Part shown: positions 22,031 through 41,243 of the stretch, piece after piece
Layout: every line of letters starts with the position of its first letter
Position numbering within the stretch: position 1 is the first letter of the stretch
Source: a virus
Strand: one strand, 5' to 3'
Virus record (IMG/VR): IMGVR_UViG_3300009130_000013
Span: 29,196 to 93,195 of that record
Length of the DNA stretch: 64,000 nucleotides
Notes under the pieces: model-generated
Seen by the model: only the letters and a program-made list of their open reading frames with translations
What the model was told of the DNA's origin: nothing
Databases searched by the model: none
Made by a program: the position numbers and the translations under genes

Positions 22031-23329
22031 ATGTTTTTAGACCCAACGAAACTCAGAAGAATCACGATAGAAATTACAGCAAACTGTAATAGTTTCTGCC
22101 CTCAATGTTTGAGAAGAGTATCAGGTGATATTCCACATTTAAATTTAAAAGAAGGTGATGTTAATCCAGCAATTAAAGTAGGTAGTTCTGGTAATATGCC
22201 TATGTCTACTATTAAGAATATCTTTACTCCTACAGTAATGGGTGGACTTAAAACATTAGACTTAAATGGTTCGTTTGGTGACGCTATTAATCACCCAGAC
22301 ATGATAGAGATACTTCATTATATTGCTGATGTAAGTGATAGTGTAAAGTCACAGAGATTAAAGAATGATCGTAACACTAGAACAGACCTATGGGTTAGTA
22401 CTAACGGTGCTATGAGAAACAAAGAGTTTTGGACTGACCTTGGGCATTTAGCAAGTCAACGATACAATCCTAACAACTCAGAATTAATATTTGCTTTAGA
22501 TGGAACAGATGATAAAACACATCAACTATATCGTAGAGGTTGTTCATACGAAAAAGTTTTAGAGAATGCTCGTTACTTTATGGAGGCTGGCGGCAAAGCT
22601 ATATGGCAAATTATTGAGTTTGACCACAACAAACATCAAATAGAAGAAGCAAAAGAACTAGCAAAGAAATTAGGATTTGTTAGAATTGATGTAAGACGTA
22701 GTAGATGGGCTGAAAGAATTAGTAATCAATTAAGAGAAAAAGCAATTAAAACAGGTGTTGTAAGTGTAAAAGAAAAAGAAACAGACTTCGACCATAAAGG
22801 ATTTGGTAACGTTAAGAAAAAGAAGTTTGAAAACAAATCACATAAGCCACCTACAGATCATTACAAGTCAATGGAAGAAAAAGCTAAGAAAATTGTTGTA
22901 GAAAAGTTTGACAATAGTATGGATGACTATGCCAACAACTGTAACATTTGGTGCTCATGGGGTAATGAAGGAAAGTTACAAATTGAATGGGATGGTCGTG
23001 TACACGTTTGTTGTCACTTTACAGCCTATTTTGCTCGTTCATGGCGTAAAGATATGGCTAACCCTGATGGTAGCCCTAATAATACATACCATAACAAGTA
23101 TGTGTCGAACTATGATGAGAAATGGAATTATACCAGCCATCATACATTAGAAGATGTGTTAGGACATAAGTTCTTTCAAACGGATTTACAGGATAGTTGG
23201 AAAAACCGTACTGACGATCCAATTAAACCTAGAATGGAGATCTGTGTAGATAACTGTGGTAGTATCGTACAAGAGCTCAGAGATAAAAAAGAAGATAGAA
23301 TATCTTTAGACGGAGGTAAAACAACATGA
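22031..23329 (+). CDS. radical SAM/SPASM protein, paralogue 2
   Basis: A 432-residue protein, paralogous to 9108. CX3CX2C is CNSFCPQC (C19, C23, C26). Shared blocks include FALDGTDDKTHQLYRR and EFDHNKHQIEEAKELAKKLG. C-terminal auxiliary-cluster cysteines: NIWCSWGNEGK, HVCCHF, ICVDNCGS. A Lys-rich insertion near residues 250-290 distinguishes it from paralogue 1. The two enzymes may act on related or consecutive substrates, or form a heterodimer. The substrate is unknown. Its stop overlaps the next start by 4 nt. Confidence 0.9.
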   Translation: MFLDPTKLRRITIEITANCNSFCPQCLRRVSGDIPHLNLKEGDVNPAIKVGSSGNMPMSTIKNIFTPTVMGGLKTLDLNGSFGDAINHPDMIEILHYIADVSDSVKSQRLKNDRNTRTDLWVSTNGAMRNKEFWTDLGHLASQRYNPNNSELIFALDGTDDKTHQLYRRGCSYEKVLENARYFMEAGGKAIWQIIEFDHNKHQIEEAKELAKKLGFVRIDVRRSRWAERISNQLREKAIKTGVVSVKEKETDFDHKGFGNVKKKKFENKSHKPPTDHYKSMEEKAKKIVVEKFDNSMDDYANNCNIWCSWGNEGKLQIEWDGRVHVCCHFTAYFARSWRKDMANPDGSPNNTYHNKYVSNYDEKWNYTSHHTLEDVLGHKFFQTDLQDSWKNRTDDPIKPRMEICVDNCGSIVQELRDKKEDRISLDGGKTT

Positions 23330-24637: not shown

Positions 24638-25441
24638 ATGTATAGAAATAATATATCCGCAGTTAATAGAGCTAGTAACTTTATGTCAACAAAATCAAGA
24701 CCAATGAGAACTTATAGTACACAAGCAGTATTAGAAGCTTCAGTGGCCGCGAATCGTTTTAACGGTGCTTATATTAAACAGAACAAAACCAAATACATTA
24801 AAGACGAAAACGACAATGATACAACAAAGTATATTGTTGAAATGGCTTGTAATAAGTCATTAGTATATTTCCTATTAAACAAGAAATTACCAGATGTTAA
24901 GTACCATAAAGAAGAAAATGCTTATCTGTCTAACATTCAAAATATACTTAAAGTAACAGATGCTGATAAAGAAACAGCTAACGATATTAAAGACCATTTT
25001 CAAAGCAAACTGTTTCAAGCATTAGGTGGTAAGCTAGATGAATATACTGATCAAATTTGGAAAGTATTAGATACTGAAGAGGTTACAGCACGTGAAGTAG
25101 GCTTATTAACTAGTACGCCATCTGCTTATAATAGAGATCTTAATAAAGAAGTAGTTGAAGATACAGTTTTAGAAAGATGTGCTGATGAATATGTTGGCAG
25201 TAAAGGCGAAAAGATTGAAGGACCTGTCGAACTTGTAAATGTAATTTACTCTAGTCGATTTGAGTCATACATTTACACAGGCATTTATAAAGATAAGTTT
25301 CTTGTTAGTTTTTGGAACGGTGTAGAGCTAGGCAAGAAAGGTGAAACTATTAATCTTAAAGCAAGAATCAAAAAACTTGCTCTTAGTAGATTTTACAACG
25401 GTGCTTGGGAAACTCAATTAAATTATGTTAAGAAGGTATAA
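24638..25441 (+). CDS. hypothetical early protein
   Basis: A 267-residue soluble protein from an ATG with only weak ribosome binding (AAGGAATAG about 10 nt upstream). The N-terminal 40 residues are Ser/Asn/Arg-rich and the remainder is mixed alpha/beta with a Lys-rich C-terminus. It is the first gene behind a repeat-associated promoter, so likely abundant early. No catalytic motif is visible. Confidence 0.75.
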   Translation: MYRNNISAVNRASNFMSTKSRPMRTYSTQAVLEASVAANRFNGAYIKQNKTKYIKDENDNDTTKYIVEMACNKSLVYFLLNKKLPDVKYHKEENAYLSNIQNILKVTDADKETANDIKDHFQSKLFQALGGKLDEYTDQIWKVLDTEEVTAREVGLLTSTPSAYNRDLNKEVVEDTVLERCADEYVGSKGEKIEGPVELVNVIYSSRFESYIYTGIYKDKFLVSFWNGVELGKKGETINLKARIKKLALSRFYNGAWETQLNYVKKV

Positions 25442-25755
25442 TGGTTAAAGACGTGAAACAAAAACTTAATGATAAAATAAAGGCCCTAAATTCAACTAGG
25501 GTTTTTAAAAAGATTACACCACAGTATGAACTTACTTGGTACATCAAATGGTCAGCAAGTTTATTTCTATTATTAGGAATGGCTTTAGTGACAGCAAACA
25601 TACAACCACTTCAAATGATAGTTTCACTAGTAGGTGTTGTTGGTTGGCTAGTAGTTGGAATGATGTGGCACGATAGAGCATTAATTTTTATTAACGGTAT
25701 TGCCTGTTTTATATATACTACAGGTTTAATTAAATATTTCCACTCAGGATTATAA
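25441..25755 (+). CDS. small inner-membrane protein, three helices
   Basis: A 104-residue protein. After a basic N-terminus (about 1-28) come hydrophobic segments near 33-52, 55-74 and 80-98 (SASLFLLLGMALVTANI, QMIVSLVGVVGWLVVGMMW, ALIFINGIACFIYTTGL). The spacing WYIKWSAS-LVGVVGWLVVGMMWHDRAL resembles a membrane protein family common in marine T4-like phages. The function is unknown. It is coupled to the previous gene by TAATG. Confidence 0.75.
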   Translation: MVKDVKQKLNDKIKALNSTRVFKKITPQYELTWYIKWSASLFLLLGMALVTANIQPLQMIVSLVGVVGWLVVGMMWHDRALIFINGIACFIYTTGLIKYFHSGL

Positions 25756-26083: not shown

Positions 26084-26531
26084 CAAATTTAAAAGCAGTT
26101 TAAGGTTTGGCAACAAACTAGAAAAGAATCATGCTCTTAGAGTAATCGAGCAAATCCATCCAAAGTGTACTATACACGAACCAGACGAATACAGAGAGAA
26201 TGGATTAGCAGTTCCTGATCATATAATAAAGAAAGGCAAAAAAATCGTAGCCTTTTATGACAGCAAAAACAAACGTTCAACATATAAAGTTACAGGTGAA
26301 CCAGAAAGAATTTGGAGTGTTGATGAGAAACTTTTAGAATATAGAAAATATGCTCTAAAACATAAAGCACCTTGTTACTTAATATTCTATCATAAAGATA
26401 GCGATAAAAATAATGTGTATATTGTGGATGTTAGTATTGAACCAAAGTTCTATAGAAGAATCAATAACAAGTACGGTGAACACTGGTACGGTTATTACAT
26501 ATCACAAACAACACCATATTCAATTGATTAA
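26061..26531 (+). CDS. possible PD-(D/E)XK nuclease-like protein
   Basis: A 156-residue basic protein using a TTG start (26061, or 26070 in the same frame) that overlaps the end of the previous gene. The arrangement VPDHIIKKGKKIVAFYDSKNK gives a PD followed about 14 residues later by D-x-K on a strand, reminiscent of the PD-(D/E)XK core, with a Glu/Asp earlier (EPDEYRENG) and YLIFYHKDS as a following strand. A Holliday-junction or repair nuclease would fit phage biology, but motif support is thin. A strong terminator follows directly. Confidence 0.5.
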   Translation: MPTLKQSNKFKSSLRFGNKLEKNHALRVIEQIHPKCTIHEPDEYRENGLAVPDHIIKKGKKIVAFYDSKNKRSTYKVTGEPERIWSVDEKLLEYRKYALKHKAPCYLIFYHKDSDKNNVYIVDVSIEPKFYRRINNKYGEHWYGYYISQTTPYSID

Positions 26532-26558
26532 AAAGCCCTCTGTAAGGAGGGCTTTTTT
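26531..26558 (+). terminator. rho-independent terminator
   Basis: A 10-bp stem AAAAGCCCTC / GAGGGCTTTT (26531-26540 with 26547-26556) around TGTAAG, ending in a run of T. It closes the plus-strand operon that converges with the minus-strand one and, being symmetric with an A-run on the other side, can also act on the minus strand. Confidence 0.93.
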
Positions 26559-26562
26559 ATGA

Positions 26563-26634
26563 TTACTTTTTCTTTTTCTTTTTATTTTTAGCCTTCGCTT
26601 TTTTAGAAGGCTTTTTTTTCTTTTTCTTAGCCAT
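26563..26634 (-). CDS. 23-residue poly-lysine peptide
   Basis: The reverse strand reads MAKKKKKKPSKKAKAKNKKK and three more Lys, then stop. AAAGG lies 9-13 nt before the ATG, within a hairpin (26648-26668). It is the last ORF of the minus-strand operon. Its DNA also forms a plus-strand terminator, so its coding status is uncertain. If made, it would be an extremely basic nucleic-acid- or membrane-binding peptide. Confidence 0.35.
   Translation of the reverse strand: MAKKKKKKPSKKAKAKNKKKKKK
26590..26619 (+). terminator. second terminator hairpin
   Basis: AGCCTTC (26590-26596) pairs with GAAGGCT (26606-26612) and is followed by seven T. Together with the hairpin at 26531 it makes a tandem block against read-through into the convergent operon. 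Confidence 0.65.
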
Positions 26635-26687
26635 GTTAATGACCTTTCTAAAGGCTTAAAGCCTTTAGCTCGTATTTATGAGTCCAG

Positions 26688-27284
26688 TTACTTAATATCT
26701 TCTATCTTATCACACAACTTTAAGGTTTTAGCCTCTTTGGCACTCAACCATACGTCCTGTGGTGGAAGTAAAAACTCTCTAATTTTCTTTTCAGTTAACC
26801 CTGTACATTTTTTGTAGTGGTTAATCATACGTTCTGTAGTTAATTCTAGTTCTTTAACACGAGCAAATAATTCGTGTTCTTTACCAGCACTACCCCAACT
26901 ATATTGATGTGATAGTATTGCTGTATTAGGTGTAAGTATTCTACGACCTTTCTTACCTGATATGAATAGTAACAAGCCACAAGAAGCAATCATACCTAAT
27001 CCTATTGTTCTAACAGGTATTGAAGATGCTCTCATAACATCAATTAAAGCAAAACAGGCATTTAAGTCTCCACCTCTGGAGCAAATTCCCAAGGTTAACT
27101 CTTTTGCCTTATTCCCTTTCTTCATATTTTCAGCAAGAATCCAATCGACGATCGGGCTCAAAGTGTCCATTGTTACATCACCCATGAACACATACATACC
27201 ATTCATAAGTAATTCTATTTTAGGTAGCATCATTTCTGGTCCAGGTGGTTTTGGGGCACCGTTAGCCGGTTTTTTATCTGACAT
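26688..27284 (-). CDS. clpP: ClpP-type serine protease subunit
   Basis: A 198-residue protein with a full ClpP triad: S101 in GMIASCG, H126 in LSHQYS and D177 in PPQDVWLSAKEA. SRGGD (69-73) is the oxyanion-loop motif. The N-terminal 20 residues are Pro/Lys-rich and could be a propeptide. ClpP forms tetradecamers that degrade proteins unfolded by a Clp ATPase; this phage encodes a ClpA with an IGF loop at 38925. AAGGAG precedes the start. It is the distal enzyme gene of the minus-strand membrane operon. Confidence 0.92.
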   Translation of the reverse strand: MSDKKPANGAPKPPGPEMMLPKIELLMNGMYVFMGDVTMDTLSPIVDWILAENMKKGNKAKELTLGICSRGGDLNACFALIDVMRASSIPVRTIGLGMIASCGLLLFISGKKGRRILTPNTAILSHQYSWGSAGKEHELFARVKELELTTERMINHYKKCTGLTEKKIREFLLPPQDVWLSAKEAKTLKLCDKIEDIK

Positions 27285-27299
27285 TTTCTTGTTCTCCTT

Positions 27300-27403
27300 G
27301 ATCCTTTGTTATATGTTCCATTGTGTTAAAATCCCACACTAGAGTCGTTGTCTTCATAATTACGATCTTTTGTTATATGTTCCATTTTATTAAAGTCCCA
27401 CAA
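27300..27403 (-). repeat. partial gene duplication, 64-nt period
   Basis: GATCcTTTGTTATATGTTCC at 27300 recurs as GATCtTTTGTTATATGTTCC at 27364, and about 35 of 40 positions match between the copies. Read on the minus strand, both encode a WDFN-MEHITKD peptide, but in different frames because 64 is not a multiple of three. Confidence 0.75.
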
Positions 27404-27844
27404 CTTTAATGTTTTTTCTGTAAATTCATTACCCGAATCCTCAGGTAACATCATTTTTTGAGGAAGTCCTTGTCCTTGCCTTTGTTTGGCTTCCGATAAT
27501 TTCTTTTCTCTTTCTTTAGTATATTTTATTTTATATGATCTAGGTTCCATTGACCTTGACATATCAACAGCCCAAATGTATATCCATTTTTGCTCATGTC
27601 CAACTAAATGAGTTATATAAACTTGCTCTTGTTTAGAGTTAAAATTAGTTGGATAGCCGAGCATATTTTCTATATTTGTTTTAACACTCATAGAAAGAAA
27701 TAAGATTAAAGGTATCATAACATACGTCCACCTATTTACCTTACCATATCTAATCATTGTTAACAATGAAAAAGACATTAAAACAAATATAGAAATAGTT
27801 AAGATTGTCTTAACAGTTTCAAAATCGAAATAACTAAAGACCAT
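27326..27844 (-). CDS. two-helix membrane protein with cytoplasmic tail
   Basis: A 172-residue protein. Membrane helices lie near 9-29 and 38-56; the rest is hydrophilic, with a tryptophan-rich IYIWAVDMSRSMEPRSYKI segment and a Lys/Gln-rich linker. The C-terminus (KLWDFNKMEHITKDRN) is followed by an out-of-frame near copy, so the present end may result from a duplication frameshift. It overlaps the upstream gene by 11 nt. No family is recognised; it is probably a partner of the TolQR-like pair. Confidence 0.75.
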   Translation of the reverse strand: MVFSYFDFETVKTILTISIFVLMSFSLLTMIRYGKVNRWTYVMIPLILFLSMSVKTNIENMLGYPTNFNSKQEQVYITHLVGHEQKWIYIWAVDMSRSMEPRSYKIKYTKEREKKLSEAKQRQGQGLPQKMMLPEDSGNEFTEKTLKLWDFNKMEHITKDRNYEDNDSSVGF

Positions 27845-28562
27845 GTTCCGCTCCTTCTCCTGGCGCTGGATTTAAATTCGTACTTGGAATATGACCTTCT
27901 AAATCACCTTCCGACTCATAAGCATTTTGAGTTGGTTTGCCTTTAATAAGATGTGAAGGCCTATTATTAAAACCCACCCAGTTACCTTTCTTGTCTATAG
28001 TAAATCTGACTAGGCTTTTTTCTTCCCAACGTCTACTGTATGTTCCTTCGCCTTTATACATAACTTTATACGGGTTAATTTTAATAACTTCTATTGTATA
28101 CTTTGTTGGTACCCTGTCACCTTTTATACCACCATCTACTTTCTTTACAAAAGGTCTCGCATATACGTGAAGCATAACTTGGTATTCACCAGCATAAGTA
28201 CCTCTTAATGTAACTATCTCCCTATTCAATTCTATTATAGTTTCATTACCATATTCATCTATCATTTTATCGTTTTTAGAACCTAAGTCATCTTTTTCAA
28301 GATTCATAAAACCACTAGTCTTGTTTTTAAAACTAACTACTCCACCACTTGGATCAGAAACCCAAAGATCTATATCATCTTTTGATTGGTGTTCCCATTC
28401 CATTACAATTATATACTCTGCTTTTTTTACTATATCAGCCTCTTTTGCTGGTGGTTGAATAAGCAAAAAAGCAATAATAAACATGGCTCCGAATCCTGCT
28501 AACAAGATCCAGAGCATATCTAAGAACGAGGTTATACTTTTAAATTTTGTTCTATTCGCCAT
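27834..28562 (-). CDS. TolR/ExbD/MotB-like membrane protein with periplasmic domain
   Basis: A 242-residue protein (ATG at 28562; a TTG at 28574 would add four residues). One membrane helix (about 13-36) begins FLDMLWILLAG; D15 sits where TolR, ExbD and MotB carry the proton-accepting aspartate. The periplasmic part starts with DDIDLWVSDPSGG, then a beta-rich segment (LRGTYAGEYQVMLHVYA), unlike the OmpA domain of MotB. It should pair with the TolQ/MotA-like product of the overlapping upstream gene as the rotor or plug of a proton-driven complex. The output domain is the novel part. Confidence 0.75.
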   Translation of the reverse strand: MANRTKFKSITSFLDMLWILLAGFGAMFIIAFLLIQPPAKEADIVKKAEYIIVMEWEHQSKDDIDLWVSDPSGGVVSFKNKTSGFMNLEKDDLGSKNDKMIDEYGNETIIELNREIVTLRGTYAGEYQVMLHVYARPFVKKVDGGIKGDRVPTKYTIEVIKINPYKVMYKGEGTYSRRWEEKSLVRFTIDKKGNWVGFNNRPSHLIKGKPTQNAYESEGDLEGHIPSTNLNPAPGEGAEHGL

Positions 28563-29043
28563 CTTCTTGATCAAATTCTATATTCATTAATTGAACTTTT
28601 GTAATTAAAGCACCTATCATACCACATATAGTAGTATACATCGCAGTTGAAAGTCCCCTAGCCATATGACCCAAAGCGTCTTTAAGATCTTCTGGGTTAC
28701 TTGGATCTATCTGGTCGAATATCATTCCAAATAAATATATCATTCCTGCGATCGTTCCAATCAATCCTAATGTCATCATTGTTTCTGAACAGAACCAACA
28801 GACATCAATAACCTTTTTGGTGAATCCATTATACTCTTTATCTTTAGCATCAATGTTAGTTCTATAGGCGGCAATACCTGTTAGTATTGTTGCTATTAAA
28901 AATACGCCATATATTATAAAACTAATATTAGTAACGTCAGCATGATAGATATCTTTAAATACACCAAAATGCCATAACGGATAAATGCCACACAGAGTAA
29001 TCGTTGTAAGCAACCACCAACGAGGCAGAGTTTTTCTTATCAT
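28552..29043 (-). CDS. MotA/TolQ/ExbB-type proton channel protein
   Basis: A 163-residue protein with four hydrophobic segments (about 9-27, 40-60, 88-110, 132-155). The segment TLGLIGTIAGMIYLFG and GLSTAMYTTICGMIGAL are the two channel-lining helices of the MotA/TolQ/ExbB family, including the conserved Gly and Thr residues. The family forms pentamers around a dimer of TolR/ExbD/MotB, whose gene follows and overlaps by 11 nt. It uses proton motive force to drive a motion in the periplasm. It lacks the long cytoplasmic tail of Zorya ZorA. Confidence 0.85.
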   Translation of the reverse strand: MIRKTLPRWWLLTTITLCGIYPLWHFGVFKDIYHADVTNISFIIYGVFLIATILTGIAAYRTNIDAKDKEYNGFTKKVIDVCWFCSETMMTLGLIGTIAGMIYLFGMIFDQIDPSNPEDLKDALGHMARGLSTAMYTTICGMIGALITKVQLMNIEFDQEDGE

Positions 29044-30065
29044 TTTGTTTTTCCTTCTGCTTCATCTAGAGCTCCGTTGAATTCCCTTATACGTTTAATA
29101 ACTGATAAAAAGTCTACGATAGTAGTCCATCTATCTATAAAGAATCCCATCGAACTTTCAACTCGTCCAAAGGCGTTAAGCACTTGGAACAAGACCCCTA
29201 GAGTAATTAGTTGATCAAAGTATGCTGGTGCTAATACAATTAAAGCTAAATTACCAACAGCTAATCCAAAAGAAGTTTGCCAAACACCAAAGCCCATATA
29301 CCAGTTAAACAGTCTGTAATAGTTCTTTTTAACTGCCGAGAACATTGGAAATAAAACATCTGTAGCTCTTTCTTTAAAATTGTCTTCTGAAAATACTAAT
29401 TGCTTCCTAAAAGTTGCTTCTACTTTCTGGTTGTTATATTCAAGTTTAGGAAGTTTCCAACCCAGAACAACTGATATTAGTGTACCACCCAATGATACGC
29501 CTAATGCTACCCATACTAAAAACCCAGGAATTATTTGGCCATTCCATACTGGTAAGCCTTCTGATAAATTCCATAGGATTGGAAGGAAGGCAAACAATAT
29601 CAATATAGACGAAAAGAATCCAGTAAACAATCCTTGTAATGTTTTACCGAATATCATTAAGTCTTCTTGAATACGCTGGCTTCCACCTTCTATTTGAGCG
29701 TCACAATTTTCCCACCTTCTTAGGTAGTAGTGTGTATTAGCCTCTCGCCAATGGAAACAATATCTTTGTGTTTGCCACGTGGCGTAAACGGCTATTGGAA
29801 CATACAAGCCTATAATTTCAATAAATGAAGGCATGGTATCTTCTGTTAGTGTAACGAAATCCCAAATCCTCTCGAGATTAAACCCTAGAAATAATTCCCA
29901 AAATCTATCTTCTTGAAGAGATTGAATAGCGTCATAAATTTCTTTATTCCAAGCATTATAAAATACTAGAATTTCTACAGTATACCAAGATATACTTAAT
30001 AATAATGACAACATAACCCAAGCATAAAAGGCCTGACTTCGTTCTAAGAAAAATGACTTTAACAT
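29040..30065 (-). CDS. sbmA: SbmA/BacA-family peptide transporter
   Basis: A 341-residue membrane protein clearly related to E. coli SbmA (406 aa). It has the start FKSFF-like MLKSFFLERSQ, GGSQRIQEDLMIFGKTLQ, WKLPKLEYNNQKVEATFRKQ, FSAVKKNYYRLFNWYMGF and SSMGFFIDRWTTIVDFLSV, matching SbmA order and spacing. It is shorter at the N-terminus. SbmA/BacA import peptides (proline-rich antimicrobial peptides, microcins, bleomycin) across the inner membrane using proton motive force. It has no ATPase domain. AGAGGAG precedes the ATG. It lies between a membrane-anchored ClpP-like peptidase and a TolQ-like channel gene. Confidence 0.92.
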   Translation of the reverse strand: MLKSFFLERSQAFYAWVMLSLLLSISWYTVEILVFYNAWNKEIYDAIQSLQEDRFWELFLGFNLERIWDFVTLTEDTMPSFIEIIGLYVPIAVYATWQTQRYCFHWREANTHYYLRRWENCDAQIEGGSQRIQEDLMIFGKTLQGLFTGFFSSILILFAFLPILWNLSEGLPVWNGQIIPGFLVWVALGVSLGGTLISVVLGWKLPKLEYNNQKVEATFRKQLVFSEDNFKERATDVLFPMFSAVKKNYYRLFNWYMGFGVWQTSFGLAVGNLALIVLAPAYFDQLITLGVLFQVLNAFGRVESSMGFFIDRWTTIVDFLSVIKRIREFNGALDEAEGKTK

Positions 30066-30077
30066 TGACTATCTCCT

Positions 30078-30902
30078 CTAATCATGTGTCCCTGACAGTA
30101 AAACTCCTTCACCTGTCACTCCCCAAAAGTTTTTATAATGTGTAGCCAATGTAGCAAGTGCTGGCTTGTACTGAAAATCTCTTGGATTTAAAAAGTACAT
30201 TGACGTAGATGGTACTTGAAGAAACAAGTACTTAATATCATCGTCTGTTATACCTAACTGATCAAGCAACATCATTATTGCCGCACTAGTTCTGTACGTT
30301 TGTGCCTCTAAAGCTCGTTTACCAACTTGTGGTAATACTTCATCTGGAGTTCTAGGACTATGTATACCAAAGTACACGTCACCAATTAAGTAACGTTTAT
30401 CTCCGCCTAAAAATATTAATGAACACGAAGAAGCACACATAACTTTGCCGTCCTTACTTGGCCATCCTGGTATTGATACCTTGCCAGGATCGTATAGTAT
30501 TTCACCGTCTTCATTAATAACAGGTGTATCTCTAACTACTGTAACTACATTTCGATGTTTTAAATGAGCCGCCAAACAAGCCCCATCAATTAATGATCCA
30601 CCGGGGCTTTCTAATATTACAGAAAAAGGCGAGCCATCATTAGGCAATTTAGCTACAATCTTTTCACAGTCGTCAACTTGAACGTAACCAGTCATTGAAT
30701 ATAATGACTTTGATAATTGTTTAAATTCTAACCCCGGTAATTGTTCGTCATTAAGTGAATGAGTATAGGGCGGGAATGGCGAAGCACCAGAACCTGTATC
30801 TTGGTTGCTAACAAACCAAAAAATATTTCCCACAAGTATCGATACTAATATAATGCCCGATAATAGGAACCATCTAGTTTCCTGAAAAAACGACTTAAAC
30901 AT
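30078..30902 (-). CDS. membrane-anchored ClpP-like serine peptidase
   Basis: A 274-residue protein with one N-terminal membrane helix (about 12-31); the catalytic domain would be periplasmic. ClpP/crotonase-fold motifs are SPGGSLIDG (99-107), MCASSCSLIFLGG with the likely nucleophile S158, and H181 in FGIHSPR. An acidic third residue is not obvious. Similar anchored ClpP-like proteins occur in alphaproteobacteria and some phages. It is the first gene of the operon and 12 nt from the SbmA-like gene, suggesting processing of peptides before uptake. Confidence 0.82.
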   Translation of the reverse strand: MFKSFFQETRWFLLSGIILVSILVGNIFWFVSNQDTGSGASPFPPYTHSLNDEQLPGLEFKQLSKSLYSMTGYVQVDDCEKIVAKLPNDGSPFSVILESPGGSLIDGACLAAHLKHRNVVTVVRDTPVINEDGEILYDPGKVSIPGWPSKDGKVMCASSCSLIFLGGDKRYLIGDVYFGIHSPRTPDEVLPQVGKRALEAQTYRTSAAIMMLLDQLGITDDDIKYLFLQVPSTSMYFLNPRDFQYKPALATLATHYKNFWGVTGEGVLLSGTHD

Positions 30903-34406: not shown

Positions 34407-35243
34407 ATGAGTTTTAAGTTCGATTTTACAAAAGATCAATTATCAAGTATTCTATCAAAAAACAATGAAGTAAATGAATGGTATGAACTAATGAAAGACT
34501 TACTACCAAAATACGACATTGATACAGAAAATAGAGTAGCAGGATTTTTAGCACAATGCGGACATGAAAGTTTACAGTTTACAGTATTAAAAGAAAACTT
34601 AAACTACAGTTCAGATGCTCTTAACAGAGTATTTCCAAAGTATTTTAAAAATGCTGGCAGAGATGCTACAGAGTATCACAGGCAACCTGAAAAAATTGCT
34701 AACGTTATCTATGCTAATAGGATGGACAACGGAGACACAGCGTCAGGAGATGGATATAGATTCCGTGGACGTGGTGTAATACAATTAACAGGTAGAAGTA
34801 ACTACACTAGATTTGGTGAGTCTATTAATAAATCACCAGAAGAAGTTGTAGAATATTTAGGAACTAAACAAGGTGCTCTTGAAAGTGCTTGTTGGTTTTG
34901 GAGTACAAATGGATTAAATAGATATGCTGACAGTCAAGATATTGTTGGTATGACTAAAAGAATTAACGGCGGAACAATAGGTTTAGAAGATCGTAAAAAA
35001 CATTATGAACACGCTCTTGAAACATTTGATGGACATTATAAACCTATAAGAAGTTTTGAATCAGTTAGAAAAGGTTCTAAAGGACAAACGGTTATGGAAG
35101 TACAAAGAAAATTAGGAATTATGCCAGTTGATGGCATCTTTGGTTCTGGTACTGAGAACCGTGTTAAAAGATGGCAACAAAGTGTTGGCCTAACTCCAGA
35201 TGGTATTATGGGACCAAAATCTTTAGGAAAACTACTAGGATAA
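34407..35243 (+). CDS. endolysin: GH19-type lysozyme/chitinase domain plus peptidoglycan-binding domain
   Basis: A 278-residue protein. The catalytic region has AGFLAQCGHES (Glu general acid of the GH19/lysozyme superfamily), YRFRGRGVIQLTGRSNY and GALESACWFWSTNGLN, typical of phage GH19 muramidases. Residues about 215-278 form a PG_binding_1 domain (VRKGSKGQTVMEVQRKLGI, then DGIFGSGTENRVKRWQ). There is no signal peptide, so it needs a holin. Spanin-like genes follow, making a lysis cassette. Confidence 0.92.
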   Translation: MSFKFDFTKDQLSSILSKNNEVNEWYELMKDLLPKYDIDTENRVAGFLAQCGHESLQFTVLKENLNYSSDALNRVFPKYFKNAGRDATEYHRQPEKIANVIYANRMDNGDTASGDGYRFRGRGVIQLTGRSNYTRFGESINKSPEEVVEYLGTKQGALESACWFWSTNGLNRYADSQDIVGMTKRINGGTIGLEDRKKHYEHALETFDGHYKPIRSFESVRKGSKGQTVMEVQRKLGIMPVDGIFGSGTENRVKRWQQSVGLTPDGIMGPKSLGKLLG

Positions 35244-35247
35244 AATT

Positions 35248-35742
35248 ATGGGACTAAAACTAGCATTGATAATGATGGTATTAATGGCCGCCATGGGCGG
35301 AGCAGGATATTGGTATTATCAAGATACACAGAAAAAAATGAATATACTTGTAGCTAATGAGGCCAAAGCAACTGTGGCGGCTGAAGTGGCAGAAGCATCT
35401 GTACAAGCTATGAAAGAATCCTATGAAGCTATGGACCGAGAAAACAAAATAATCAAAGCAAAGTATAAAGAAATAGAAGACCGAGCTGATAGATTACAAA
35501 ACAAATTATCTAAACATGACATAGGCGTACTAGGAATTGCTAGAGATAGTTTAACAGAACAAGTAATTACTAAAATGTCAAATAGTTCTTTACGATGTAT
35601 AGAAATTACTAGCGGAGCAGAGTTAACAGAACAAGAATTATTAGCAACTAAACCAAGTGAAATTAATTCTGAATGTTATGAAATAGCTAACCCTAACTTT
35701 GATCCTAAATTATATCCTGTATGGCTGGAGAAAAATCAATGA
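35248..35742 (+). CDS. inner-membrane spanin-like protein (Rz type)
   Basis: A 164-residue protein with one N-terminal membrane helix (about 4-24), a long periplasmic coiled coil (residues 35-95) and a C-terminal region with two cysteines. Order and overlap with a short lipoprotein gene match i-spanin/o-spanin pairs, which fuse the inner and outer membranes at lysis. Longer than many Rz proteins, so another envelope function is possible. Confidence 0.7.
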   Translation: MGLKLALIMMVLMAAMGGAGYWYYQDTQKKMNILVANEAKATVAAEVAEASVQAMKESYEAMDRENKIIKAKYKEIEDRADRLQNKLSKHDIGVLGIARDSLTEQVITKMSNSSLRCIEITSGAELTEQELLATKPSEINSECYEIANPNFDPKLYPVWLEKNQ

Positions 35743-36185
35743 GAACAATAGCTATTTTTATTATCGCTACTCTGTTTTTGGCAGGCTGTAGCACTACACC
35801 TAGAGTACTAGAAGTTTCAGCAGTACCTATAGACAAACCTCAACTAATATTACCAGATGTTGATAAACTAGAACTAAAAGAAATTGAATGGATTGTAATT
35901 AATGAAGCAAATGTCCAAGAAGTTTGGAAACGTATATCAGACGATAAAAAAGATGTAGTCCTGTTTGGGCTAACTGATGACGGATATGAACAATTATCAA
36001 TAAACTTATCTGACATAATGACATTGATACAACAACAAAAAGCTATCATAGTGGCTTATAGAAATTACTATGAAGAAGCCAACGAAGCTCTTGATAATGC
36101 TAATTCGCAAAACAAGAAAGTAAACAAACAAGTCGAAGATGCTAACACAAAAGAAGCTAATAAAAAGTGGTGGCAAATCAAGTAA
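35739..36185 (+). CDS. outer-membrane lipoprotein, spanin-like (Rz1 type)
   Basis: A 148-residue protein read from the ATG at 35739 with GGAG upstream. A lipoprotein signal peptide ends in the lipobox LAGC, so the mature N-terminus is a lipidated Cys followed by STTPRVLEV. The C-terminal half is a helical coiled coil with Lys/Asn-rich end. It overlaps the i-spanin-like gene by 4 nt. Larger than classical Rz1 and not Pro-rich. Confidence 0.72.
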   Translation: MRTIAIFIIATLFLAGCSTTPRVLEVSAVPIDKPQLILPDVDKLELKEIEWIVINEANVQEVWKRISDDKKDVVLFGLTDDGYEQLSINLSDIMTLIQQQKAIIVAYRNYYEEANEALDNANSQNKKVNKQVEDANTKEANKKWWQIK

Positions 36186-36285: not shown

Positions 36286-36528
36286 ATGTGGTTTTTTCTA
36301 ATTAAAGCAATAGCTGGTGGAATCATTGGCAATGCTACAGCAAATTGGTTTCGTGATACAAAACTAGGTGTCTGGTTTTATAACAAAATGGATAGTTTAT
36401 ATAACTGGGCGGCTAAACGTTACCATCTCAAGCTTCTAACTGACGAAGAAAAACAAATGAAGAAATTCCCAGCTTTAAAAGAAAGACTGGACTCAATGGA
36501 CAAACGACTTAAAAAGTTAGAAAAGTAA
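36286..36528 (+). CDS. small membrane protein with coiled-coil tail
   Basis: An 80-residue protein: N-terminal hydrophobic helix with Gly/Ala (FFLIKAIAGGIIGNATANW), then an amphipathic region and a charged C-terminal coiled coil (LKERLDSMDKRLKKLEK). AAAGGAGC precedes the start. A holin or pinholin-like role next to the lysis genes is possible but not shown. Confidence 0.7.
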   Translation: MWFFLIKAIAGGIIGNATANWFRDTKLGVWFYNKMDSLYNWAAKRYHLKLLTDEEKQMKKFPALKERLDSMDKRLKKLEK

Positions 36529-36532
36529 GACA

Positions 36533-36967
36533 ATGGAAATATTCGACCAAATGGGAATGGACGTAGCTGATTTAATAGGGCCGTGGATAGCGATCCTAAT
36601 ATCAGTTTCTGCGGTATTCTGGTTTAAAGACTTTATAGGTAATATGGTACAGGGTTTAAAGTTTAAATGGAACCCTGCTTTTAAAGAAGGCGATAGTGTA
36701 TTACTTGATGGCGATGATGCTATTATTGTTAAAATAGGATTATGGTCAACTGTATTTGGTGTGTATGGCGAAAAAGGATATACTTGGAGGTATGTTCCAA
36801 ATACTCGTATACCATTTTTAAAATTAGAAAAAATAGTTAACCCTGATTTACACTTGGATAGTAAAGGTGAAAAGGGTAGACGAATAAAAGAATTACTCGA
36901 CGAAGCTCAAAATCAAGCAATATCAAAAAATAGAGAAGACATCGATAATTTAAAAGGTAAGAAATAA
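36533..36967 (+). CDS. minimal MscS-like mechanosensitive channel protein
   Basis: A 144-residue protein. One membrane helix (about 15-37), then FKEGDSVLLDGDDAIIVKIG, LWSTVFGVYGEKGYTWRYVP and PNTRI, matching the MscS pattern of a pore-side helix followed by the beta domain (F..GD.V......V..I...T.......G....VPN..I). MscS is a 286-residue heptamer; this version keeps little more than the pore-proximal helix and the beta domain and ends with a charged coiled tail. It may form a channel or regulate the host MscS. It lies near the lysis genes. Confidence 0.65.
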   Translation: MEIFDQMGMDVADLIGPWIAILISVSAVFWFKDFIGNMVQGLKFKWNPAFKEGDSVLLDGDDAIIVKIGLWSTVFGVYGEKGYTWRYVPNTRIPFLKLEKIVNPDLHLDSKGEKGRRIKELLDEAQNQAISKNREDIDNLKGKK

Positions 36968-36979
36968 GGAGTATAATAA

Positions 36980-37288
36980 ATGAGTGATGAAGTCACAAAG
37001 AAAAAAGTAAATATTGAGCTTGAAGTAGATACAAGCATTGTAGATAGTTCTCAGAACAAATATCGTACAGTAATCGATTTAGCGAAAGCAGTAGACAGTT
37101 GGCGAATTTTCCCAAGAATTTTCATCACTACATATATAGTTCTGCTCTACAAAGTAGTTGTTTGGTTTATGGCCTTAGAAGCTCCAAATTTTGAACAAAG
37201 TGGATTAGTATCAATAGTAGTTGGTGCTGGTGCGGCTTGGTTCGGTTTATATTGTGGTTCTAGCAAGTTTAAAGGCAACAAAGAATAA
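36980..37288 (+). CDS. small membrane protein (holin-like candidate)
   Basis: A 102-residue protein with two hydrophobic segments (about 45-65 and 75-94): IFITTYIVLLYKVVVWFMAL and SGLVSIVVGAGAAWFGLYCG. I recognise the YKVVVWFMALE..VVGAGAAWFGLY pattern in marine T4-like phages. The N-terminus is charged and cytoplasmic. Placement downstream of endolysin and spanin-like genes makes it a candidate holin. Confidence 0.7.
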   Translation: MSDEVTKKKVNIELEVDTSIVDSSQNKYRTVIDLAKAVDSWRIFPRIFITTYIVLLYKVVVWFMALEAPNFEQSGLVSIVVGAGAAWFGLYCGSSKFKGNKE

Positions 37289-37329: not shown

Positions 37330-38160
37330 ATGACTAGAGACCCTTACGAAGTATTGGGTGTATCCCCCGACGCAGATGAAAAAACAATAAAAAAAGCCTA
37401 CAAAAAAATGGCAATGAAACACCACCCCGATCGTACGGGCGGTGACGAAACCAAAATGAAGGAAGTAACTGAGGCTTATAATAGAATTACTAAAGGGGAC
37501 ACACAACAAAATCCATTTGGGGATGGGTTTCACTTTTCTACTAATTCTAATATGTCGCAAGAAGATTTACACGACATACTATCAGGATTTGGCGATTTCT
37601 TTACAAGAGGATTTGGCGGATTTGGCGGACCACACCCTGATGTAAAATATAGAGATAGTCAAAGAAAAGGCCGTGATGTCGCAATGGACTTACCAATATC
37701 CTTTCATCAAATGTGGTTTGGGCATGAACATTTCTTACAAATAAATGGTAAAACTCTTAGTGTTAAAACACCTCCAGGTGTTCGTAATGGTGCTAGAATA
37801 CGTTACACAGGGCACGGACTGCCTCCTAATCAATTAGGTACTCCGGGAGACTTAATAATCACGGTACTTGTACAGCAAGACGATAAGTACAGTATAGAAG
37901 GTAATACAGTTATTGCTAACCAGCACATATCAGTTTGGGACGCAATCATCGGAGGAGACGTTGAATACAAACACGTTGATGATAGAGTTCTCAAAATCTC
38001 AATTAATCCAGGAACACAACATGGTCAGCTTTTTCGTATACCAGGATATGGTGTTAACAATGGTGACCTAATAGTTAGAGCTGTTATTGAAGTTCCGAGT
38101 TCTAAGAGCTTGACAAAGGAGCAAAAAGAAGTTATAATGAAATGGAAGAATAAAAAGTGA
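37330..38160 (+). CDS. dnaJ: DnaJ-type (CbpA-like) co-chaperone
   Basis: A 276-residue protein. The J-domain is intact: DPYEVLGVSPDADEKTIKKA and HHPDRTGGDE with HPD at 32-34, which triggers DnaK ATP hydrolysis. A Gly/Phe-rich linker (about 72-100) and two C-terminal beta domains (GRDVAMDLPISFHQMWFGH, TVKTPPGVRNGARIRYTGHG-like) follow. The zinc-finger domain of type I DnaJ is absent, as in CbpA. No Shine-Dalgarno sequence lies before the ATG, which falls at the predicted transcription start. Confidence 0.9.
   Translation: MTRDPYEVLGVSPDADEKTIKKAYKKMAMKHHPDRTGGDETKMKEVTEAYNRITKGDTQQNPFGDGFHFSTNSNMSQEDLHDILSGFGDFFTRGFGGFGGPHPDVKYRDSQRKGRDVAMDLPISFHQMWFGHEHFLQINGKTLSVKTPPGVRNGARIRYTGHGLPPNQLGTPGDLIITVLVQQDDKYSIEGNTVIANQHISVWDAIIGGDVEYKHVDDRVLKISINPGTQHGQLFRIPGYGVNNGDLIVRAVIEVPSSKSLTKEQKEVIMKWKNKK
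38110..38138 (+). promoter_or_regulatory. sigma70-type promoter inside the end of dnaJ
   Basis: A perfect TTGACA (38110-38115), a 17-nt spacer and a perfect TATAAT (38133-38138) sit in the last codons of dnaJ (LTKEQKEVIMKW). It would drive the deformylase gene with about a 12-nt leader. Confidence 0.8.
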
Positions 38161-38693
38161 TACGGTTAGATCCACAATATCTTCATAACAAAGCAAAACG
38201 TTGCCTATGGCATAACTTTGAAAAAGATAAAAAAATGTATCAAATGCTATCAGCTCAAATGATTGAACTTATGATAGCTGAACATGGATTAGGATTGGCC
38301 GCAAATCAAGTAGGTATGAACTTACAAATGTTTGTTATGAAAAGAGAGAACGGAGATAAGATTGCTTGTTTTAACCCTGAGGTAGTAAAGGTAGGTACTG
38401 ACTGGCACGGTGATGTTATGTGGGCCGACTTTGAAGAAGGTTGTTTAAGTTACCCAGACGTACATTATAAAATATTACGTCCTAGAACTATAACAGCTAA
38501 ATGGACTAACTATCAGTCAACAGATGTTGTACAAGATTTAACAGATATGGAAGCCAGATGTTTTTTACATGAATTTGATCACTGTCAAGGAATCACTTTT
38601 GAACAACGATATAATAACACCATAAAGAAAGAGTACATATCGGATAATATTATATTAGAAGAGAAACCAATAAAACAAAGCGTGGCTATATGA
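38157..38693 (+). CDS. def: peptide deformylase
   Basis: A 178-residue metalloenzyme from a GTG overlapping the dnaJ stop. All three motifs are present: GLGLAANQ (44-51), EGCLS with the metal ligand C96 (94-98) and HEFDH (138-142) giving the two histidine ligands and catalytic Glu. It removes formate from N-formyl-Met of new proteins. Marine phage deformylases are known from cyanophages. This one releases formate that the phage formate dehydrogenase could oxidise. Its C-terminus is normal in length for phage forms. Confidence 0.96.
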   Translation: MIRLDPQYLHNKAKRCLWHNFEKDKKMYQMLSAQMIELMIAEHGLGLAANQVGMNLQMFVMKRENGDKIACFNPEVVKVGTDWHGDVMWADFEEGCLSYPDVHYKILRPRTITAKWTNYQSTDVVQDLTDMEARCFLHEFDHCQGITFEQRYNNTIKKEYISDNIILEEKPIKQSVAI

Positions 38694-38923
38694 GAACATA
38701 CAAATGGATTGAAGGAATAGTTAGACCAGTAAAAGGCGTTAAAGAAGAATACAAAGATATAAACGAAGAAACTGAAGACAGAAGTTTTAAAAAAGCATTA
38801 AAGTCATTTCAGAATAAAGTTAAAGAATGTCGCTGGTTAAGAGTACAATATAAAAGTAAAAAAGGTAAAGACCTAGATCGTTGGGTTGAAATACCATTAG
38901 GACGTAAGAAGAGAATTGGATAA
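38690..38923 (+). CDS. small basic hypothetical protein
   Basis: A 77-residue protein, Lys-rich (KSFQNKVKECRWLRVQYKSK), ATGA-coupled to the deformylase gene and abutting the clpA gene. The function is unknown; possible nucleic-acid or ribosome binding by charge. Confidence 0.65.
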   Translation: MRTYKWIEGIVRPVKGVKEEYKDINEETEDRSFKKALKSFQNKVKECRWLRVQYKSKKGKDLDRWVEIPLGRKKRIG

Positions 38924-38924
38924 A

Positions 38925-41243
38925 ATGATAAAACACAACCCGGAAATGGATTTAATCTTAAGCAAGGCTTATGACTTTGCTCATAAACTTAATCACAAAT
39001 ATGTAACTATCGAACACTTGATGTTGAGTTTAGTTAACTATAAAAATTTTAAAATTATGCTTGAAGAATTTGGTTGCGACCAAGAAAATCTTGCTTTAGA
39101 AATTAAACATCACGTTGAAACATTACCCATAGCATCTAAATCGCCAGTTGAACCTCAAAAGACACACGGCTTAGATAGAGTATGTAATAGAGCATTTACT
39201 CAAGTACTATTCAGTGGTAGACAACATTTACAAACTATAGACTTGTTTCATAGCATAATGACTGAACAAAGAAGCTATGCTTTTTATTTGTTCGCAAAAT
39301 ACAATGTTGACAAAGATGAACTAACAAAATTCTTTAATAAAACATATACCGGTGATGATGAAAAAGCATTACATCAACAAATGGCACAAGAAACACTAGG
39401 CGAGTATTGTACAAATTTAAACGATCAAGCTAAAGTAGGAAAGATAGATCCTGTTATAGGCAGAGAAAACGAAATTGAAGAAATGTGCCAAGTACTAGCA
39501 AAGCGAAATAAATCAAATGTATTACTAATAGGTGAGCCAGGTGTAGGTAAAACAGCACTTGCTGAAGGACTTGCTATGAGAATTTTAGATGGCGATGTTC
39601 CTGATTACCTAAAGAACTCTCGTGTTTACAACTTAGACATGGGTAGTTTAATAGCTGGTACAAAGTACAGAGGAGAATTTGAAGAACGATTAAAAGAAAT
39701 TATTTCCGCGGCAAAAATATTGCCAGGATCAATACTTTTCATTGATGAAGCACATCAAATGAGAGGTGCCGGCGCCGGGGGAAACAGTGGACCAGATTTT
39801 ATGCAAATGCTCAAACCAGCATTGGCTAAAGGAGATGTGAAAGTAATCGCATCTACTACTTGGGAAGATTATACGTCTAGTTTTGAAAAAGACAGGGCGT
39901 TTATGAGAAGATTTTATAGACTAACAGTTGAAGAGCCCACACCAGAGGTAGCGAAAGATATACTTACTGGTCTTAACAAATATTTTATGGAATTTCATAA
40001 AGCGAAAATATTTCCAGAGGCTATTGAAGCCGCTGTTGACCTTAGCGTCAGGCACCAACCAGATAAAAAGTTGCCTGACAAGGCAATTGATTTAATAGAT
40101 AGTGCCTGTGCTAGACAACGTTTCCTAAAACAAACTAACTATAAGATTCGTAAGTCTAACATTATAGAAGAACTATCTAAAGCAACTAGAATACCATTAG
40201 AACAATTAAACTCAGAAGCTACAAAGAGCTTGGCTGATATAGACGGTCATATTAAAACAAAACTATTCGGTCAAGACCACGTTATAGATACTGTGGTTAA
40301 TAAAATTATGGTATCTAAAGCAGGACTTAAGAGTATTCATAAACCAATTGGTGTATTTTTACTATTAGGTCCAACTGGTTCTGGTAAAACAGAGTTTGCT
40401 AAACTACTTGCTGAAAACAGTCAAGCAAAACTATTAAGATTTGATATGAGTGAATATCAAGAGAAGCATACAGTCGCAAGACTAATTGGTGCTCCTCCAG
40501 GTTATGTAGGTTATGAAGACGGTAATCTAGGAGGTGGACTATTAATTAGTCAAATTGAAAAGAATCCACACGCCATTGTATTGTTTGACGAGATAGAAAA
40601 AGCACACCCTGATGTTAGTAACGTTTTACTACAACTAATGGACGAAGGCTTTATTACTAGTACAAATGGTAAAAAAGCAGATGCTAGAAATACAGTTATC
40701 TTAATGACATCTAACTTAGGTGCCAAAGACAATGAAATGAATAATATAGGATTTAGTCAAGAACTAGAAAAGTCGGGTGAAGAAGATAAAGCAATGAAAA
40801 ACTTCTTTAAACCTGAATTTAGAAATAGACTAGATGGAGTATGTAAGTTTAAACATTTATCAAATGACGTAGTAAGAAAAATTGTTGGTAAGTTTAAAAA
40901 TGAAATAAATGACTTACTAGCAGAAAAAGGTATTAAGATAGAATTTATGGAAAAAGCTGTAGCCCAATTAGCCAAACTTGGCTATGATAAGAAAATGGGT
41001 GCTAGACCACTTGGTCGAGTTATTGAAGATAAAATTAAAATACCTCTATCTAAAAAGATATTATTTGAGAGTATTAAAGAAGGTTCTTTAATATTAATTG
41101 ATTATACGAAAAAAGAATTTAGTATAACAGTTAACCCTAACGAGGCTAATGCTGATGGCGAATTACAAGATACCAAATCTAAAACCGGAGTCGATAAATC
41201 AGGTCTTATTGTACTGGACCAATTTAAACCAGAACCTAAATAG
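38925..41243 (+). CDS. clpA: ClpA-type AAA+ unfoldase
   Basis: A 772-residue protein (E. coli ClpA is 758) from the ATG at 38925. The N-domain (1-140) carries the Clp repeat. D1 has Walker A GEPGVGKT (203-210) and Walker B LFIDEA (271-276); D2 has Walker A GPTGSGKT (482-489) and Walker B VLFDEI (552-557). The ClpP-docking tripeptide IGF (608-610, NNIGFSQ) is present, so it should bind ClpP, possibly the phage ClpP at 26688. The middle coiled coil of ClpB is absent, confirming ClpA rather than ClpB. Its likely role is degrading chosen host or phage proteins. Confidence 0.95.
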   Translation: MIKHNPEMDLILSKAYDFAHKLNHKYVTIEHLMLSLVNYKNFKIMLEEFGCDQENLALEIKHHVETLPIASKSPVEPQKTHGLDRVCNRAFTQVLFSGRQHLQTIDLFHSIMTEQRSYAFYLFAKYNVDKDELTKFFNKTYTGDDEKALHQQMAQETLGEYCTNLNDQAKVGKIDPVIGRENEIEEMCQVLAKRNKSNVLLIGEPGVGKTALAEGLAMRILDGDVPDYLKNSRVYNLDMGSLIAGTKYRGEFEERLKEIISAAKILPGSILFIDEAHQMRGAGAGGNSGPDFMQMLKPALAKGDVKVIASTTWEDYTSSFEKDRAFMRRFYRLTVEEPTPEVAKDILTGLNKYFMEFHKAKIFPEAIEAAVDLSVRHQPDKKLPDKAIDLIDSACARQRFLKQTNYKIRKSNIIEELSKATRIPLEQLNSEATKSLADIDGHIKTKLFGQDHVIDTVVNKIMVSKAGLKSIHKPIGVFLLLGPTGSGKTEFAKLLAENSQAKLLRFDMSEYQEKHTVARLIGAPPGYVGYEDGNLGGGLLISQIEKNPHAIVLFDEIEKAHPDVSNVLLQLMDEGFITSTNGKKADARNTVILMTSNLGAKDNEMNNIGFSQELEKSGEEDKAMKNFFKPEFRNRLDGVCKFKHLSNDVVRKIVGKFKNEINDLLAEKGIKIEFMEKAVAQLAKLGYDKKMGARPLGRVIEDKIKIPLSKKILFESIKEGSLILIDYTKKEFSITVNPNEANADGELQDTKSKTGVDKSGLIVLDQFKPEPK

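Follow-up and report, generated by a model that had tools for sequence, protein, structure and literature searches.

A six-gene operon on the minus strand of the virus record IMGVR_UViG_3300009130_000013, from a large marine phage, combines a putative proton motor, an SbmA/BacA-like importer and two ClpP-type proteins. Based on a 64,000-nucleotide window of this 93,195-base record (positions 29196-93195), we tentatively propose that the operon specifies an envelope module, powered by protons, in which periplasmic proteolysis is linked to peptide import and to recycling by Clp, a reading to which we give somewhat less than an even chance. One unit, motA-tolR-tm2, would be a proton-driven motor of the MotA-MotB/TolQ-TolR type whose periplasmic output domain is its own; in a second, clpP1-sbmA, a ClpP-fold protease anchored in the membrane and lying in the periplasm would be joined to a peptide importer. 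The motor would draw on the proton gradient and act on the periplasm or the outer membrane, ClpP1 would cleave proteins of the periplasm or incoming ones, the peptides would enter the cytoplasm through the SbmA-like protein, and there ClpP2, probably aided by a phage ClpA (and ClpS in one relative), would complete degradation. Amino acids could thereby be recycled during infection, or harmful peptides removed; peptide recycling or handling is ranked first because the importer and Clp proteases are common to the marine phages. The proposal rests on gene content, conservation, co-occurrence, folds and key residues, from which we infer topology, motor activity, direction of transport, contacts and benefit to the phage.

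The operon runs from position 30902 to 26688 in the order clpP1, sbmA, motA, tolR, tm2 and clpP2, all on the minus strand, and its six open reading frames (ORFs) are tightly packed, with neighbours overlapping by 4-23 nt or lying 12-41 nt apart. A 12-nt gap separates clpP1 (30078..30902, 274 aa) from sbmA (29040..30065, 341 aa), which overlaps motA (28552..29043, 163 aa) by 4 nt. The motA/tolR and tolR/tm2 overlaps are about 11 nt each when tolR is read from its ATG (27834..28562, about 242 aa), and 41 nt lie between tm2 (27326..27844, 172 aa) and clpP2 (26688..27284, 198 aa). This agrees with the first-pass annotation, which had claimed such an operon: all six ORFs are present, and their identities were checked. 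A convergent terminator-like hairpin read from the sequence (AAAAAGCCCTC-CTTACA-GAGGGCTTTTT, 26530..26557) separates the operon from a plus-strand gene ending at 26531. GC skew falls across the operon, as expected from genes on the opposite strand. Where estimable, dN/dS was 0.05-0.30 for all six genes, with dS often close to saturation, and all six are under purifying selection. Between clpP2 and the hairpin lies a Lys-rich ORF of 23 codons (MAKKKKKKPSKKAKAKNKKKKKK, 26563-26634, minus strand), the sole such ORF on its strand; it was considered as a seventh gene or SbmA substrate and rejected, being not conserved in relatives. The T4 late promoter motif TATAAATA was expected 13 times in the window and is present once, which leaves it uninformative on expression timing, and a sigma-70 scan was uninformative (25 sites against 24.6 expected).

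A scan of viral records with sbmA recovered 80 loci. The 27 loci with an sbmA of at least 70% identity have the same companions wherever the sequence suffices, in two arrangements: that of the window (clpP1-sbmA-motA-tolR-tm2-clpP2), and motA-tolR-tm2-small gene-clpP1-sbmA, in which clpP2, when visible, is found a few genes upstream. Given these shared companions and the dN/dS values, the gene set is more than chance. The first-pass annotation had staked its proposal on the genes being neighbours elsewhere, which in other phages they are, in both arrangements. Scanning viral contigs with the window tolR alone gave nothing, its patterns being too specific, whereas other members of the family worked: two further tolR proteins used as queries added about 50 loci. 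In intact loci from the tolR scans motA, tolR and tm2 are kept together. These three genes are one invariant unit, and clpP1-sbmA is a second invariant pair. Late hidden Markov model rounds for tm2 drifted to antisense ORFs where loci were GC-rich, and the later counts therefore rest on a phage-only model.

The importer is the most readily recognised member. The protein matches SbmA_BacA (PF05992) over residues 12-332 (E 1.8e-78, 264.6 bits, cut-off 24) and E. coli SbmA structures (E 5e-53), and has no match to an ATPase family, that is, no nucleotide-binding domain, as in SbmA/BacA (SLiPT) importers generally; unlike them it lacks the TM0 part. E. coli SbmA uses a proton ladder of six glutamates, and transport is abolished or badly impaired when any one of them is lost (PMC13316013). 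The phage protein retains four of them (E134, E209, E216 and E227, aligned with E193, E269, E276 and E287), and the ladder is left incomplete by Q144 in place of E203 and D318 in place of E378, changes that set the ClpP1-linked clade apart. All 27 distinct phage SbmA proteins with clpP1 in the locus carry Q or N at the E203 position, whereas the full ladder is present in 36 of the 37 from loci without clpP1, the exception presumably being a locus cut within sbmA. On this pattern of residues the E203 change appears tied to partnership with ClpP1, and it is probably one ancestral change that marks a clade, not 27 events.

ClpP1 has an N-terminal transmembrane helix and no Pfam family match, with PF00574 found in 0 of 18 relatives. 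In the AlphaFold2 model of ClpP1 (mean pLDDT 78) there is one long N-terminal helix, and ClpP structures head the Foldseek list for that model (E 7e-7, probability 1.00, target TM 0.67); a profile alignment with ClpP2 agrees (E 6.4e-6, probability 85). Ser158 and His181 are invariant, and there is no invariant Asp at the expected third catalytic position. Four invariant cysteines (79, 109, 156 and 160) and the N-terminal anchor suggest that the ClpP-fold domain is periplasmic.

The motor unit combines a recognisable channel with an unfamiliar output. MotA matches MotA_ExbB (PF01618) above the cut-off (E 1e-6, 29 bits against 22.9), retains conserved channel residues (a GT motif with T97, and T138) and gives weak matches to ZorA, MotA and TolQ structures, with ZorA chains best in the PDB (E 8e-5) and ZorA2 models best in PADLOC (E 1.2e-8). 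TolR probably starts at ATG 28562 and not, as annotated at first, at TTG 28574, because its homologues begin there. The Asp first reported in its transmembrane helix (D19) proved invariant in 33 of 33 relatives. A channel subunit above the PF01618 threshold and a partner with a transmembrane Asp are together the sequence marks of a MotA/TolQ/ExbB-type motor. After the helix TolR is modelled as a beta-sandwich domain (pLDDT 78.5) with invariant W60, DxD (67/69), DD (95/96) and E119, numbered from TTG 28574. Pfam assigns it no family (six of 33 relatives match DUF2135 weakly, E 0.03 at best), and its weak PDB matches are to DUF4425 and to a calcium-bound Parabacteroides domain (E 2e-3); we would guess that D67, D69, D95, D96 and E119 suit a metal site. 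Tm2 had been described as a two-TM protein: its first transmembrane segment is strong and stands, its second is weak, a basic loop lies between them, and the C-terminal domain is probably periplasmic.

This unit shares with Tol-Pal and Ton (TolQ-TolR, ExbB-ExbD) the MotA_ExbB channel motifs, a one-TM partner with an Asp and overlapping genes. It differs in a shorter channel subunit (163 aa), in having tm2 in place of TolA/TonB, and in the beta sandwich of TolR, whose membership of the TolR/ExbD family was rejected after Pfam and PDB sequence searches gave no match. Zorya was likewise rejected, as the first-pass annotation had anticipated in calling the operon not simply Zorya. Although ZorA is the closest relative of MotA in both PDB and PADLOC, MotA scores 25.9 bits against a curated cut-off of 500 and 15 against 700, the long ZorA tail is absent, and TolR has no OmpA-type ZorB domain. 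A phylogeny of MotA-type stators places ZorAB as a remote phage-defence relative and includes generic ion transporters with uncharacterised extra domains. Failing membership of Zorya or of the TolR/ExbD family does not argue against similar working.

Degradation in the cytoplasm would fall to ClpP2, which is of the cytosolic type, matches CLP_protease (PF00574; E 3.7e-27, 95.8 bits) and has an invariant Ser101-His126-Asp177 triad in 17 of 17 relatives. Outside the operon the window encodes a ClpA-like AAA+ unfoldase (38916..41243, plus strand; Clp_N, two AAA and ClpB_D2-small domains) carrying an IGF loop (NNIGFSQE), the ClpP docking signature of ClpA and ClpX, which makes it the likely partner of ClpP2. 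It adjoins genes for a peptide deformylase (38157..38693, plus strand) and, next to that, a DnaJ-type co-chaperone (37330..38160, plus strand). Ten of 24 related records contain ClpA; most of the remainder are fragments. In one 235-kb phage (L078) a ClpS gene follows tm2 with a 4-nt overlap (PF02617, 2.5e-24), and phages 16-3, TM3_3_14B and N3_13 have a trypsin-like protease beside or near the motor genes. Proteolysis, part of the first-pass reading, is borne out as a recurring partner by ClpP1, ClpP2, ClpA and ClpS. A jumbo phage survey mentions ClpP, ClpS and ClpA, each singly, and contains no MotA, TolQ, ExbB or SbmA (PMC7824862); here, by contrast, the ClpP-type genes share an operon with importer and motor, and ClpP1 is membrane-anchored.

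Many loci with the motA-tolR-tm2 triad have no sbmA nearby. Among triad-bearing viral records longer than 55 kb sbmA is nevertheless present in 11 of 11, mostly tens of kilobases away, and those without it are all shorter than 48 kb. The large phages G004, G014 and G025 hold both triad and sbmA. One 246-kb record (G365) resembles another (G349) and has clpP1-sbmA and no tolR; it appears to end about where tolR would lie. A 347-kb record (G024, locus L228) was left out, its triad and neighbours looking bacterial; its contig may be misclassified in the viral collection. Cultured phages with tolR all infect rhizobia or are named Rhizobium phages with no stated host, an example being 16-3. The nearest relatives of the window DNA polymerase are the enzymes of two rhizobial jumbo phages, Phosso and Atu_ph07, so an alphaproteobacterial host fits, and neither phage is among the tolR and sbmA matches.

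The triad is also an undescribed bacterial operon with the same gene order and homology throughout. Relatives of tolR occur in Azospirillum, Skermanella, Tistrella, Geminicoccaceae, Kiloniellales, Mesorhizobium, Granulosicoccaceae, Thiobacillus and others; in nearly every case motA precedes tolR and tm2 follows it. Of 289 sampled alphaproteobacterial genomes, a match at 1e-6 was present in 47, and in 40 of these it was strong (about 14-16%). Cellular copies have no adjoining clpP1 or sbmA, and no neighbour is common to them overall, the neighbours being lineage-specific. In several alphaproteobacterial lineages, 1.4-Mb genomes included, a gene for a DUF3108-like lipoprotein follows tm2 (L208-L211, L204, L214 and L215), and this lipoprotein might serve the motor as a partner in the outer membrane. 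A quick tree of 62 tolR proteins splits deeply into two groups: Azospirillum-type bacteria and 16-3-like phages make up the first, and small-genome alphaproteobacteria, marine phages and T4-like rhizobial phages the second. The phage copies thus form two subfamilies and, since each group contains phages, the tree suggests that phages probably acquired the triad at least twice.

Several observations weigh against a single peptide-handling module. The viral records are mostly fragments and related to each other, so their co-occurrences are not independent counts. Complete rhizobial phage genomes carry the triad without SbmA, as do bacteria, and the first-pass idea of six genes forming one physical machine gives way to two modules. 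In the sampled bacterial genomes the triad and a strong SbmA (30 genomes) overlap in four genomes against 4.15 expected; as the two are independent in bacteria, the pairing is peculiar to phages. (Within the 1.2-1.4 Mb size class of these genomes, the triad is present in seven, a strong SbmA in another seven, and both in none.) Full activity of E. coli SbmA needs E203 (PMC13316013), and because this residue is replaced the importer of the window may be altered or impaired. ClpP1 also has no obvious catalytic Asp.

The best-surviving alternative, which we nonetheless think unlikely, is an envelope guard: the motor would sense or counter envelope change and exclude a second phage or a toxin, and the proteases would destroy incoming proteins, much as in Zorya with another output. 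The ZorA relationship of MotA speaks for such a guard, and the temperate phage 16-3 has its triad in a region that also holds immunity genes. Against this, the ZorA matches are partial and far under the curated cut-offs, TolR lacks an OmpA domain, and the triad does not resemble a defence-island gene, being a cellular operon of long standing that is inherited widely and has different neighbours in different lineages. An SbmA importer would, moreover, raise the entry of some toxins.

Proximity to lysis genes raises a second, less probable alternative, in which the motor and a periplasmic protease weaken or remodel the envelope and so time or complete lysis and release. The lysis cassette of the window lies 3.5 kb from the operon (34407..36185, plus strand; endolysin 34407-35243, i-spanin 35248-35742, o-spanin 35721-36185), the triad of G004 sits inside such a cassette, between spanins and genes for holin-like, DnaJ, peptide deformylase and ClpA proteins, and many phages have a holin-like gene (phrog_10198) upstream of the triad, at a distance of three to seven genes. 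T4-like rhizobial phages, however, have the triad among replication and late-sigma genes, cells retain it without any phage, and an importer and ClpAP are unsuited to a role in lysis.

Detoxification, in which toxic cationic peptides are taken out of the periplasm by SbmA and destroyed by Clp, the motor maintains the envelope and the infected cell survives, seems to us improbable. Rhizobial BacA protects against host peptides, and the cultured phages with the triad are rhizobial, yet these phages have no SbmA of their own, and for marine hosts there is no known source of such peptides. Uptake of antimicrobial peptides is itself known for SbmA/BacA proteins (PMC13316013). Least probable of all is that two unrelated accessory units co-occur in a permissive region through phage kinship: the units are separable, their association in cells is nil, and fragmented, related records inflate the counts, but both arrangements keep them together and all 11 long records hold both in the same genome after rearrangement, even far apart.

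Elsewhere in the window, three small membrane-protein genes lie between the spanins and DnaJ (36286-37288, plus strand), the last being the phrog_10198 gene, which may encode a holin. An 805-aa protein (45797-48214, plus strand) fuses deoxyribonucleotidase-like and tRNA nucleotidyltransferase-like parts. After a clamp-loader gene comes a 432-aa protein (22031-23329, plus strand), radical SAM-like with a Cys-rich start (TANCNSFCPQC), and a similar-looking gene flanks the triad in L078. A DUF6552 membrane protein (25441-25755, plus strand) weakly matches the sugar-efflux family MtN3_slv.

Every part of the proposed peptide-recycling module can be assigned, by membership or by its way of working, to a known kind (MotA/TolQ-type motors, SLiPT importers, ClpP); tolR and tm2 are named in none of the searched libraries. 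The literature searched contains no paper describing a phage system with SbmA, MotA or TolQ parts, in line with the first-pass annotation, to which no described phage system with such a set was known. A bolder version, which we regard as doubtful, is that alphaproteobacterial phages adopted a widespread, undescribed bacterial motor and combined it with a modified SbmA and a periplasmic ClpP into a trans-envelope machine for capturing, cutting, importing and recycling peptides, the lost glutamate marking a changed energy coupling. The motA-tolR-tm2 operon also matters outside phages, as a conserved family of bacterial motors, and cultured phages (16-3) and bacteria (Azospirillum) make it testable now. 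If the proposal is true, an ion-driven motor encoded by a phage would represent a way of interfering with the host envelope that is new for viruses, and peptide import with proteolysis would add trans-inner-membrane amino-acid recycling to the phage repertoire in nutrient-poor seawater.

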